NCBI GenBank assembly: GCA_017304945.1
Contig: JAFKLG010000058.1
Span: 1 to 64,000, forward strand
Source of the DNA: Rhodospirillales bacterium
Lineage (GTDB): Bacteria > Pseudomonadota > Alphaproteobacteria > Acetobacterales > Acetobacteraceae
DNA: 64,000 nt
Reading direction: 5' to 3'
How positions within the stretch are numbered: the stretch's first letter is position 1; the number at the start of each line of letters is the position of its first letter. This document shows positions 22,175 to 29,563 of the stretch, piece after piece. The translations under genes and the position numbers were made by a program. The notes below the pieces were generated by a model. The model saw only the letters and a list, made by a program, of their open reading frames with translations, made no database searches and was not told where the DNA came from.

Positions 22175-25417
<3,243 letters not shown>

Positions 25418-25422
25418 GCGGC

Positions 25423-25731
25423 TCAGGGCTCCGGAGTGTTGGCGAGCAGGGCGCGCGCGGCGGCGACGCCCTTGGGCGTGAGTTCGAGGTGCCAGTGGCA
25501 CTGCAGCGCGCCTTCGGGCAGGCGCACCGGCTCGTGCACCAGTGCCTCGCGCAGCAGGGTGGCGACGGCGTCGCGGAACCCGGCCTCGGTCAGTTGGCCC
25601 CCGGTCAGGGCGGCAACCCGATCGAAGCCGGCCTCGATCGTGGGTTCGCTGATGACGTGGCGGAACGCCGTCGTCAGCAGCAGGCCGGCGGCGTCCATCT
25701 CATACCTGCGCGCTGAGTCATCGACACGCAT
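25423..25731 (-). CDS. Unknown small protein encoded between carA and carB
   Basis: A 102-residue soluble protein that I do not recognise: [20 protein letters not shown], then [19 protein letters not shown] and [20 protein letters not shown]. The pattern (helices, then a short beta strand and LTPKG) is reminiscent of a winged-helix or small regulatory domain, which is only an impression. I prefer the ATG at 25731 because GAGGTG sits six bases before it; the in-frame ATG at 25797 would lie inside a 13-bp hairpin. It is tightly flanked by carA (90 bp) and carB (5 bp), implying a role tied to carbamoyl phosphate synthesis or its control. Confidence 0.65.
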
Positions 25732-25794
25732 GAAGAGCACCTCGGCGCGCGGTATGGTCTTGATCCGGGCGCGGCCGCCCCACCAACCCCGCGC

Positions 25795-25826
25795 CATAGC
25801 GATGAGCGAAGGGGCTCATCGCTATG
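25795..25826 (-). promoter_or_regulatory. 13-bp perfect hairpin over the carA stop codon
   Basis: CATAGCGATGAGC (25795-25807) and GCTCATCGCTATG (25814-25826) form a perfect 13-bp stem with a 6-nt loop. It includes the carA TAG and ends at the possible ATG at 25797. There is no T-run. It could be an attenuator, an RNA processing site, or a block on the upstream start. Confidence 0.6.
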
Positions 25827-27183
25827 AAGTGCGGCTCTCGATCAGGCGCACGAAGCGGTGGAACAAATGGTGGCTATCGGACGGGCCGGGGCTCGCCTCC
25901 GGGTGGTACTGCACGCTGAAGGCGGGCTTGTCGATGCAGGCGAGACCTTCGTTCGAGCCGTCGAACAGCGAGACATGGGTGACGCGCGCGTTGGCCGGCA
26001 GCGTCTTGTCGTCCACCGCGAAGCCGTGGTTCTGGCTGGTGATCTCGACCTTGCCCGTCGCCAGGTCCTTCACCGGCTGGTTCGCGCCGCGATGGCCGCG
26101 GTCCAGCTTGTAGGTGCGGGCGCCGAGCGCGAGACCGAGGAGCTGGTGGCCGAGGCAGATGCCGAACAGCGGGATGCCGGCATCCAGCACGCCGCGGATC
26201 GCCGGGACCGCATAGGCGCCGGTCGCCGCCGGGTCGCCCGGCCCGTTGGAAAGGAACACGCCGTCCGGCGCGTGGCCGAGGATTTCCTCCGCCGTGGCGG
26301 TGGCGGGCACGACGGTGACGCGGCAGCCGGCGGCGGCGAGGCAGCGCAGGATGTTGCGCTTGGCGCCGTAATCCACCGCGACGACATGGTGCCGCGGCGA
26401 GTCCTGCCGGCCGGTGCCGGTCGGCCAGGCCCAGACCGTCTCGTCCCAGTGATAGGTCTGCCGGCAGGAGACCTCCTTCGCGAGATCCATCCCCTCGAGC
26501 CCCGGCCAGGCGACGGCCTGGGCCTGCAGCGCCGGGATGTCGAAGCGGCCGTTGGCGGGGAAAGCGAGTACGCCGCTGGGCGCGCCGCCGTCGCGGATGC
26601 GCACGGTGAGCGCGCGCGTGTCGACGCCGGAAATCCCGGTGATGGACCGGGCTTTCAGCCAGGCATCGAGGCCTTGCGCGGCCCGCCAGTTGGACGGATC
26701 GGTGACGTCCTGCTTCACCACGAGGCCACGGGCGGCGACGGTTCCCGCCTCGATATCCTCCGGATTGGCGCCGACATTGCCGATATGCGGGAAGGTGAAG
26801 GTGATGATCTGCCCGGCATAGGACGGATCGGTCAGGGTCTCCTGATACCCCGTCATGCCGGTGTTGAAGCAGACTTCGCCGACCGGGGTGTCCGCACCGG
26901 TATGGGCGCCGAAGCCGCGGCCCCAGAACACCGCCCCATCCGCCAGCACCAGCGCGGCAGTGGCGCCGCCAGGCACGTCGGAGGGTTCGGCCGGTTCCGG
27001 CGCGAGACCGCTCTGCAGGTCGGCGAGGGCGAGTCCGGTCGCGGCGATCACCGCGGCCCAATGGCGCGAGGGGATCGAGCCGGACTGGCGCCACTTGCGC
27101 ACGGCCTCGGTGCTGACCCCAGTGAGCCGCGCGGCGGCATCCGCCCCGCCCAGCCGGTCGATGATGTCGTCCACGTTCGGCAT
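25822..27183 (-). CDS. carA: Carbamoyl-phosphate synthase small subunit with N-terminal HTH domain
   Basis: A 453-residue protein, some 65-75 longer than ordinary CarA. Residues 75-450 are the glutamine amidotransferase subunit: [13 protein letters not shown], the nucleophile in [15 protein letters not shown] and the catalytic HPE in [10 protein letters not shown]. Residues 5-50 are a Cro/YdaS-like helix-turn-helix: [36 protein letters not shown]. No good start codon with a ribosome-binding site exists at the CarA domain (only a GTG near residue 69 without one), so the fusion seems real. Two dyads just upstream suggest autoregulation by the fused domain. It feeds ammonia to CarB. Confidence 0.92.
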
Positions 27184-27190
27184 GGCGCCC

Positions 27191-27219
27191 TATGTATGGG
27201 AAGTTTTCTCCCAATACAA
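27191..27219 (-). promoter_or_regulatory. Candidate carA promoter with a dyad filling its spacer
   Basis: On the minus strand TTGTAT (27219-27214) and TACATA (27196-27191) are separated by exactly 17 bp. That spacer is the dyad TGGGA-GAAAACT-TCCCA (27213-27197). Both hexamers are weak matches to sigma-70 consensus. Transcription would start near 27184, at or next to the carA ATG, so the message could be leaderless. A repressor on the dyad would cover the polymerase site. Confidence 0.5.
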
Positions 27220-27234
27220 CGGACACAGAGGTGC

Positions 27235-27254
27235 GTCGGAATTTTCTTCCCGAC
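27235..27254 (-). promoter_or_regulatory. Second dyad upstream of carA
   Basis: GTCGG (27235-27239) and CCGAC (27250-27254) flank a core containing GGAA-TTTTC-TTCC. The core resembles the dyad at 27197 (GGGAAGTTTTCTCCC), and the two centres are about 40 bp apart, near four helical turns, as expected for cooperative binding. Confidence 0.45.
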
Positions 27255-27493: not shown

Positions 27494-29563
27494 ATGAAGA
27501 TTGCGCTGCTCAGGCCCATGCGCGACCAGGGCATCGGCGTTCGGATCGCGGCCCTCGTCATCCTGCCGCTGCTCGGGTTGATCGCCATCTCGGCCGCATT
27601 GCTCGTCGAGAAGCACACGGTCGCCGCCGAGTTCGCCAAGCTCCTGGCGCTCGGCCACCTCACCACCGATTCCAGCAATCTCGTGCACGAGCTCCAGAAG
27701 GAGCGCGGCATGACCAACAGCTTCATCGGCAGCAAGGGCGCGTTGTTCGGCGCCGAACTCCAGGGTCAGCGCCAGCTGGTGGATGCCAGGCTGGCGGACT
27801 ACCGCGCCCGCCTGCGGACGTTCGATCCCCAGGGGTACGGCGACCGGTTCGCCGGCACGCTGCGCCGCGCCGCCGAGATGCTGGATCGGCTGGAGGCGAT
27901 CCGCGAACGCGCGAGCGCGCTGGCCATGCCCGGCCCCGACGTCTTCGCCTACTACACGGCGACCATCCGCCACCTGCTGGACGCGGTGGGCGAGGCGGCG
28001 GTCGTCGCCACCGACCCGCGCGTCGTGAAGGGCATCTTCTCCTCCTTCAGCATCATGGCCGCCAAGGAGCGTGCGGGGCAGGAGCGCGCGATCGGCGCCC
28101 TCGGCTTCGGCCTCGGCAAGTTCGATCGGGACCTGCTTGGCCAATTCATCTCCCGCGGCGCCGAACAGGAAACGTTCTTCAACCTGTTCAAGGAGTATGC
28201 GACCGAGGCGCAGGTCGCCTTCCTGCACCTGACCGTCACCCCAGCCGCCGACGCCGAGGTCGCGCGCATGCGGGCTGCTGCCATCCAGGGCGGGGCGGAA
28301 GGCACGCTTCAGGGCATCACCGCGCCGGGCTGGTTCAAAGCCGCCACCACGCGCATCGACATGTTGAAGGTGGTCGAGGATCGACTCTCCGCCGACCTGG
28401 AGACGCTGAACGAGCGACTTCATCGTCACGCGGTGCTGCAGTTCGACCTGGTCCTGGCCATGCTGGGGATATTCGGCCTCGCCACGGCCGTCGGGACCCT
28501 GCTCATCATCCGTGGGATCACGCGCCCGGTCCTCGCACTCACCCGCGTCATGGGGGAGATGGCGTCCGGCAATCTCGAGGTCGCAGCCCCTGGCGCCGAT
28601 CGCGGCGACGAGTTCGGCCACATGGCGCAGGCCGTCCAGGTGTTCCAAGTGAACGGGCGCGAGCAGCGGCGCCTGGAAGCCGCACAGGCGGCAAAGGCGG
28701 AAGCGGAGGCGGTCCACGCCGCGCGGCTCGAGGCGCTGACCCGCGGCTTCGAAACGAAGGTCGGCGGCCTCGTCGCGGCACTCGCCGCCGCTTCGGCGGA
28801 GATGCACACGACGGCGGAGGGGATGTCGGCCACGGCAGAACGCACCAGTCGGCAGTCGATGGCAGTCGCGGCCGGGGCCGAACAGGCCAGTGTCAACGTG
28901 CAGACGGTCGCCACCGCGGCCGAGGAGCTCTCCGCCTCGATCGCCGAGATCAGTCGGGGCGTGGCGCGGTCCGCGATGATGGCGGGGCAGGCGGTCCAGG
29001 AAGCCCAGCGTACCGATGCGACGGTGCAGGCGCTGGCCGATCGTGCGCGCAAGATCGGCGACGTGGTGCAACTCATCGGGGAGATTGCCGGGCAAACCAA
29101 CCTGCTGGCGCTGAACGCCACGATCGAGGCCGCGCGCGCCGGCGAGCACGGGAAGGGCTTCGCGGTCGTCGCCAGCGAGGTCAAGAGCCTCGCAACCCAG
29201 ACAGCGAAGGCGACCGAGGGAATTTGCTCCCAGATCGCGGAGATTCGGACGGTCACCGCCGAGGCCGTCGCCGCGATCAGGGGGATCGGGACGATCATCG
29301 ACGAGCTCAGCAACATCTCCGCGACGATTGCCGCGGCGATCGAGCAGCAGGGTGCTGCCAGCCAGGAGATCGCGCGCAACATTCAGCAGGCTGCCGCAGG
29401 AACTCAGAACGTCACTGCGAATGTCGCCGGGGTCCAGCACGCGACGACGGACACGGAAGCGGCGGCAAGCCAGGTGCGCGCGGCAGCCGGAGAGGTCTCC
29501 GGGCAGTCGCAGACACTCGCGGACGAGGTGAACACGTTCCTGTCCAGCGTGAAAACTGCCTGA
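27494..29563 (+). CDS. Methyl-accepting chemotaxis protein with NIT sensor domain
   Basis: A 689-residue inner-membrane chemoreceptor. TM1 is at residues 17-40; the periplasmic part has the nitrate/nitrite-sensing (NIT) pattern [22 protein letters not shown]2 lies near residues 315-340, followed by HAMP ([21 protein letters not shown]) and the MCP signalling hairpin with the conserved tip [22 protein letters not shown]. It controls the CheA/CheW kinase by ligand binding; NIT domains bind nitrate or nitrite in some proteins, but the ligand here is unproven. No other chemotaxis gene is in the window. Its stop lies 1 bp from the convergent UdgX gene. Confidence 0.93.

Follow-up and report, generated by a model that had tools for sequence, protein, structure and literature searches.

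The small subunit of carbamoyl-phosphate synthase, CarA, very probably acts as an autogenous repressor in the Acetobacteraceae bacterium studied here, through a fused Cro-like HTH domain and two operators at its own promoter. The gene lies in a stretch of DNA of 64,000 nucleotides (the window), which was analyzed together with the corresponding loci of related and more distant genomes. These comparisons establish the presence of the HTH and of both dyads, the geometry of the promoter, the conservation of these elements, the absence of the dyads where CarA has no HTH, and their specificity for a single locus.

CarA carries a Cro-like HTH domain

CarA reaches 447.6 bits against the CarA equivalog model TIGR01368 for a cut-off of 307, which identifies it as a glutamine-dependent CarA, and it also matches the CPSase small-chain and GATase domains of Pfam (PF00988 and PF00117). 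Roughly its first 54 residues form a Cro-like HTH. The NCBIfam model NF046037 (carph-isopro) is matched over its full length (1-54) with 69.5 bits, the curated cut-off being 38; CarA is thus a member, well above the cut-off, of a family that comprises CarA of the Acetobacteraceae and LeuA of the Neisseriaceae and relatives. Against the Pfam model P22_Cro, the HTH domain alone gives 26.8 bits, under the gathering cut-off of 30.2, and is therefore not assigned to that Pfam family.

When a profile built from 35 family members was searched against solved structures, three phage Cro proteins came first (Xph1, Xfaso 1 and N15 Cro), at weak E-values of 0.002-0.004, and P22 Cro ranked lower. In the AlphaFold2 model of the domain, blocks spanning residues 1-50 have a pLDDT of 83-95, and the top Foldseek matches of this model are the Cro proteins of N15 (also as a complex with operator DNA), of Xfaso 1 and of P22, with E-values of 0.02-0.1 and TM scores of 0.53-0.65, values that are weak but consistent for so small a fold. 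Cro structures (5w8y, 3bd1, 2hin/6on0 and 1rzs) head both searches. The HTH of CarA thus appears, from this weak but consistent resemblance, to have the fold of phage Cro, the nearest solved structures being Cro proteins. The sequence EA[VI]RKW, in the recognition-helix region, is almost invariant among relatives.

A search of 98 genomes showed CarA fused to the HTH in all members of the same family in which an intact gene was found, and named records (Rhodopila, Acidiphilium, Acetobacter, Gluconacetobacter, Komagataeibacter and Commensalibacter) place the fusion family in the Acetobacteraceae. In the other alphaproteobacterial families sampled, CarA bears no HTH and the match starts only at CarA proper. 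The fusion is therefore family-wide in the Acetobacteraceae. A third type of carph-isopro fusion, at 70 bits, was seen in an alphaproteobacterium outside this family (L083, G084:C1:1546-1704, with two more copies close to the ends of the contig), where the domain is embedded in a protein of 598 aa that seems to have a membrane segment.

Downstream, carB is presumably in one transcription unit with carA. Between them lies an ORF of 124 aa (25423-25797, minus strand), without any NCBIfam match or credible Pfam match; its homologues are found downstream of carA in 23 of the Acetobacteraceae loci that were compared, and carB is within reach in 63 loci.

Two dyads at the carA promoter

Read on the minus strand, the region runs from a distal dyad, GTCGGGAAGAAAATTCCGAC (27254-27235), through TTGTAT (27219-27214), a proximal dyad, TGGGAGAAAACTTCCCA (27213-27197), TACATA (27196-27191) and GGGCGCC to the ATG (27183-27181) (Table 1). 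An earlier note, made from the window alone, had described the proximal dyad as TGGGA-N7-TCCCA exactly filling the spacer between the two hexamers, and its coordinates proved exact to the base, TGGGAGAAAACTTCCCA being the whole 17-bp spacer. The related dyad that it had seen about 40 bp further up was found at 39 bp, centre to centre. The dyad itself is thus real, but its register is better written YGGGAR-N5-YTCCCR (GGGAA-N5-TTCCC) than TGGGA-N7-TCCCA.

Table 1. Features of the carA locus in the window (predicted where so marked).
Feature	Position	Strand	Remarks
carA (453 aa), small subunit of carbamoyl-phosphate synthase, HTH at the N terminus	25822..27183	-	TIGR01368; ATG at 27183
Cro-like HTH of CarA (carph-isopro, NF046037)	27013..27174	-	residues 4-57
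carB, large subunit	22175..25418	-	from reading frame and sequence
Proximal operator (predicted), TGGGAGAAAACTTCCCA	27197..27213	.	9/10 to GGGAA-N5-TTCCC; same place in relatives
Distal operator (predicted), GTCGGGAAGAAAATTCCGAC	27235..27254	.	9/10 to consensus
-35 hexamer TTGTAT	27214..27219	-	TTG kept in relatives
-10 hexamer TACATA	27191..27196	-	TA kept in relatives
Discriminator GGGCGCC	27184..27190	-	7 nt between -10 and ATG; no Shine-Dalgarno

The motif TGGGA-N7-TCCCA occurs once in the 64-kb window, for 0.04 copies expected. The consensus GGGAA-N5-TTCCC, which was learned from relatives, has two matches there with at most one mismatch (1.58 expected by chance window-wide), and both are the carA dyads, which are thus imperfect copies of it. 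In 200 Markov simulations, the 200 bp preceding carA never contained two dyads of that quality. The hexamers are weak, as the earlier note had acknowledged, with 3/6 positions each, and a plain sigma-70 scan found no promoter at this place, so that the promoter is weak when judged by the sequence of the window alone. The positions of the hexamers are nevertheless conserved in relatives.

Promoter geometry and a probable leaderless start

Two classes of carA genes were distinguished among the relatives. In class I (67 genes), to which the carA of the window belongs, the proximal dyad lies inside the promoter spacer: TTG is found at the -35 in 65/67, TA at the -10 in 55/67, the operator-filled spacer is exactly 17 bp, and the -10 is separated from the start codon by 6 or 7 nt in 63/67. 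Class II consists of 27 leadered genes, mainly from Acetobacter, Gluconacetobacter and Komagataeibacter, in which the operator centre is about 50-80 bp from the start codon. In most of the latter, the right half of the operator, TTCCCA, stands 17 bp before a TA-type hexamer, so that the dyad overlaps the -35. A Shine-Dalgarno sequence is present in 20/27 class II genes versus 2/67 of class I (Fisher p about 1e-12, uncorrected for relatedness).

Promoters mapped in Gluconobacter oxydans, another member of the Acetobacteraceae, follow the consensus ttGnnn / Tatnnn; leaderless transcripts make up about 5% of its mRNAs, and nearly all of these have ATG (PMC5756330). The conserved TTG, TA and 17-bp spacer, together with this consensus, support the placement of the carA promoter at TTGTAT/TACATA. 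The 7 nt between the -10 and the ATG would then put the transcription start at 27184-27183. Taking as leaderless a transcript that starts at most 3 nt from the start codon (the definition of PMC5756330), the class I mRNA is probably leaderless, starting at or beside the ATG, given the 6-7 nt that separate the -10 from the ATG and the rarity of Shine-Dalgarno sequences in this class compared with class II. In class II, the promoter is shifted relative to the gene and a leader and a ribosome site are present, but the operator still covers the promoter, which fits repression and supports the leaderless reading of class I.

The dyads are conserved at carA and nearly confined to it

The earlier note had made its proposal depend on conservation of the dyads in relatives having the HTH-CarA fusion, and such conservation was found. 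Among 98 distinct sequences upstream of carA, 84 have two dyads that each reach 8/10 or more, versus 0/17 families without the HTH. The consensus was derived from the very set used for this scoring, whose 98 members share ancestry. In the families lacking the HTH, no match in front of carA exceeds 6-7/10, which is the chance level. The centre-to-centre gap is 38-40 bp in 77/98 relatives. Both dyads recur in an alignment anchored on the ATG. In the information profile, the -35 TTG and both arms of the operator stand out strongly against flanks that are close to 0 bits. Compared with its nearest relative, the window has 13/17 and 14/17 identical bases in the operators, 7/15 in the stretch between them, and 31/81 in the region upstream. 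Outgroup and genome-wide controls offset the circularity of the shared set only in part; they are, with the LeuA results described below, independent checks on the conservation of the dyads.

Among other loci of the family, a reduced genome of 2.7 Mb (L048, G045:C1) has retained the HTH as well as two dyads, but these are placed at about -121 and -162 and the leader is long. A gene for a methyl-accepting chemotaxis protein (27494-29560, plus strand) is divergent from carA in the window. It is not beside carA in the loci of the relatives; the dyads therefore travel with carA, and their attribution to the divergent gene was rejected.

At the genome scale, TGGGAA-N5-TTCCCA has 20 sites in 16 Acetobacteraceae genomes (75 Mb), all 20 upstream of carA, and the reversed control has none in the same genomes. 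In 16 genomes of HTH-less families, a single site was found, away from carA. A looser pattern of paired dyads occurs at 46 places in 52 genomes, of which 36 are at carA; a degenerate pattern gave no excess over its reversed control in the genome of the window (12 versus 17). No GGGAA dyads were found upstream of the other carph-isopro-like HTH proteins of the phylum, which are mostly standalone.

We also compared the HTH residues with the operator half-sites. The raw association between S/T plus AG in the HTH and CGGAA half-sites is 16/16 versus 6/73, but once the tree is taken into account no more than 1-2 independent contrasts are supported, and a residue-to-half-site covariation is not claimed. 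It is suggestive in that it points in the right direction.

A parallel with LeuA

A phylum-wide search for the carph-isopro domain revealed a second enzyme fusion, with 2-isopropylmalate synthase (LeuA). HTH-LeuA is present throughout one family (f86), whose sequences look like those of Neisseriaceae, and in some related families (L111-L157, L278-L285). A different dyad, TTRGACA-NNN-TGTCYAA, recurs upstream of HTH-leuA, over the promoter and near the start codon, and half-sites of the TTRGACA type amount to 2.4 per 180 nt in 52 HTH-leuA genes versus 0.045 in simulations. In the Neisseriaceae-like leuA, the promoter spacer preceding TATAAT contains one copy of the dyad; in related families, the copy overlaps with the -35. 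Half-sites are missing from all 12 leuA genes that lack the domain, among them one from a genus with fused members. A search for the perfect palindrome of the leuA operator gave few matches, some of them away from leuA, and does not support specificity for a single target. In one genome (L155, G395), LeuA is without HTH and no dyads lie upstream, although other members of the genus have HTH-LeuA; this would be a natural loss or replacement of the LeuA HTH.

HTH-LeuA is thus likely to be a second self-repressing enzyme. One could further propose, with somewhat better than even confidence, that carph-isopro is a portable module of self-repression, acquired separately by enzymes that stand at the branch or entry points of pathways (CarA and LeuA), each with its own conserved dyads over its own promoter, and for which the concentration or the ligand state of the enzyme would be the signal.

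CarA as a probable autogenous repressor

We infer that the CarA HTH is the protein that binds the dyads and that this binding represses. CarA is an enzyme with its own DNA-binding domain, as expected of an autogenous repressor or trigger enzyme, and a conserved predicted operator, linked to the presence of the domain, lies over its own promoter. The carph-isopro HTH would dimerize and bind both palindromes (consensus YGGGAA-N5-TTCCCR): a proximal operator between the -35 and the -10 of carA and a distal operator upstream of it. Operator-bound CarA would exclude RNA polymerase and thus lower the transcription of carA and of the genes behind it, probably including carB. With a leaderless transcript, operator plus promoter would be the main control point. 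The signal could be the amount or the oligomeric or ligand state of CarA(B), for instance CarA not engaged with CarB, and one may speculate that a single CarAB oligomer holds both operators.

Alternatively, the dyads could be operators of a separate trans-acting regulator (ArgR-, PyrR- or XRE-like), the CarA HTH doing something else or nothing. There is a precedent in Escherichia coli, where carAB is under several separate factors, ArgR, PurR, RutR and IHF as well as the trigger enzymes PepA and PyrH, and CarA is not among the named regulators (PMC6245113). However, confinement of the operator to carA in 16 genomes would be unusual for a regulator of arginine or pyrimidine synthesis, and the operator is present or absent together with the HTH. 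The LeuA fusion displays the same linkage between domain and operator, with a different operator, and we regard a separate regulator as unlikely. Another possibility is that CarA binds the dyads but activates its promoter. MerR proteins bind in the promoter spacer, where the proximal dyad is located, and the weak hexamers would suit such activation; MerR-type activation, however, relieves a spacer of 19-20 bp, whereas that of carA has the optimal 17 bp. Moreover, the class II promoter has moved by roughly the length of one operator, and the operator still covers the -35; Cro-like proteins in such positions act as repressors. Activation thus seems quite improbable.

The palindromic nature of the dyads, as well as a weak terminator-like hairpin at 27222-27237, could also suggest an RNA element (hairpin, attenuator or leader element) rather than DNA operators. 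Both dyads would nevertheless be untranscribed if the conserved promoter is right, and their arms are conserved in sequence and not merely complementary. A riboswitch or leader RNA was rejected, no match to an Rfam family having been obtained. We give this last reading very little credence, and retain autogenous repression by CarA as the best explanation.

Comparison with known systems and significance

Few self-repressing enzymes are known, PutA being the textbook case. This trifunctional protein of proline catabolism has an N-terminal DNA-binding domain and autogenously represses its own operon (PMC5293562). CarA, too, joins a metabolic activity to a DNA-binding domain at its N terminus and is predicted here to repress its own operon; on the other hand, the domain of PutA is a ribbon-helix-helix and its enzyme catabolic, whereas CarA is Cro-like, biosynthetic and apparently directed at one target locus. 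With E. coli carAB, the common point is the control of carAB transcription by enzymes (PepA and PyrH; PMC6245113), but these are unrelated enzymes acting in trans, whereas here CarA itself would act, with a dedicated domain and two short operators. A parallel can also be drawn with the phage Cro proteins (N15, P22 and Xfaso 1), which share the fold according to profile and model and have small palindromic operators over a promoter; the CarA HTH differs in being enzyme-fused and chromosomal, with one target locus and its own operator sequence. NF046037, for its part, is a sequence-family model, to which the carA case adds a predicted operator and target. The open-access full-text literature, with subscription journals mostly outside it, contained nothing on the function, operator or target of carph-isopro or on the HTH-CarA and HTH-LeuA fusions.

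If true, autogenous repression by CarA would add, for an entire bacterial family, a biosynthetic self-repressing enzyme that feeds the synthesis of both arginine and pyrimidines, as well as a conserved example in which an operator controls a promoter that is probably leaderless. A function is thereby suggested for carph-isopro, a named but unexplained domain family, and the LeuA parallel in the Neisseriaceae and relatives would make enzyme self-repression by this domain a general principle. The predicted operator is precise enough for quick testing. For the Acetobacteraceae, the finding predicts how carA would be regulated in industrial acetic acid bacteria.
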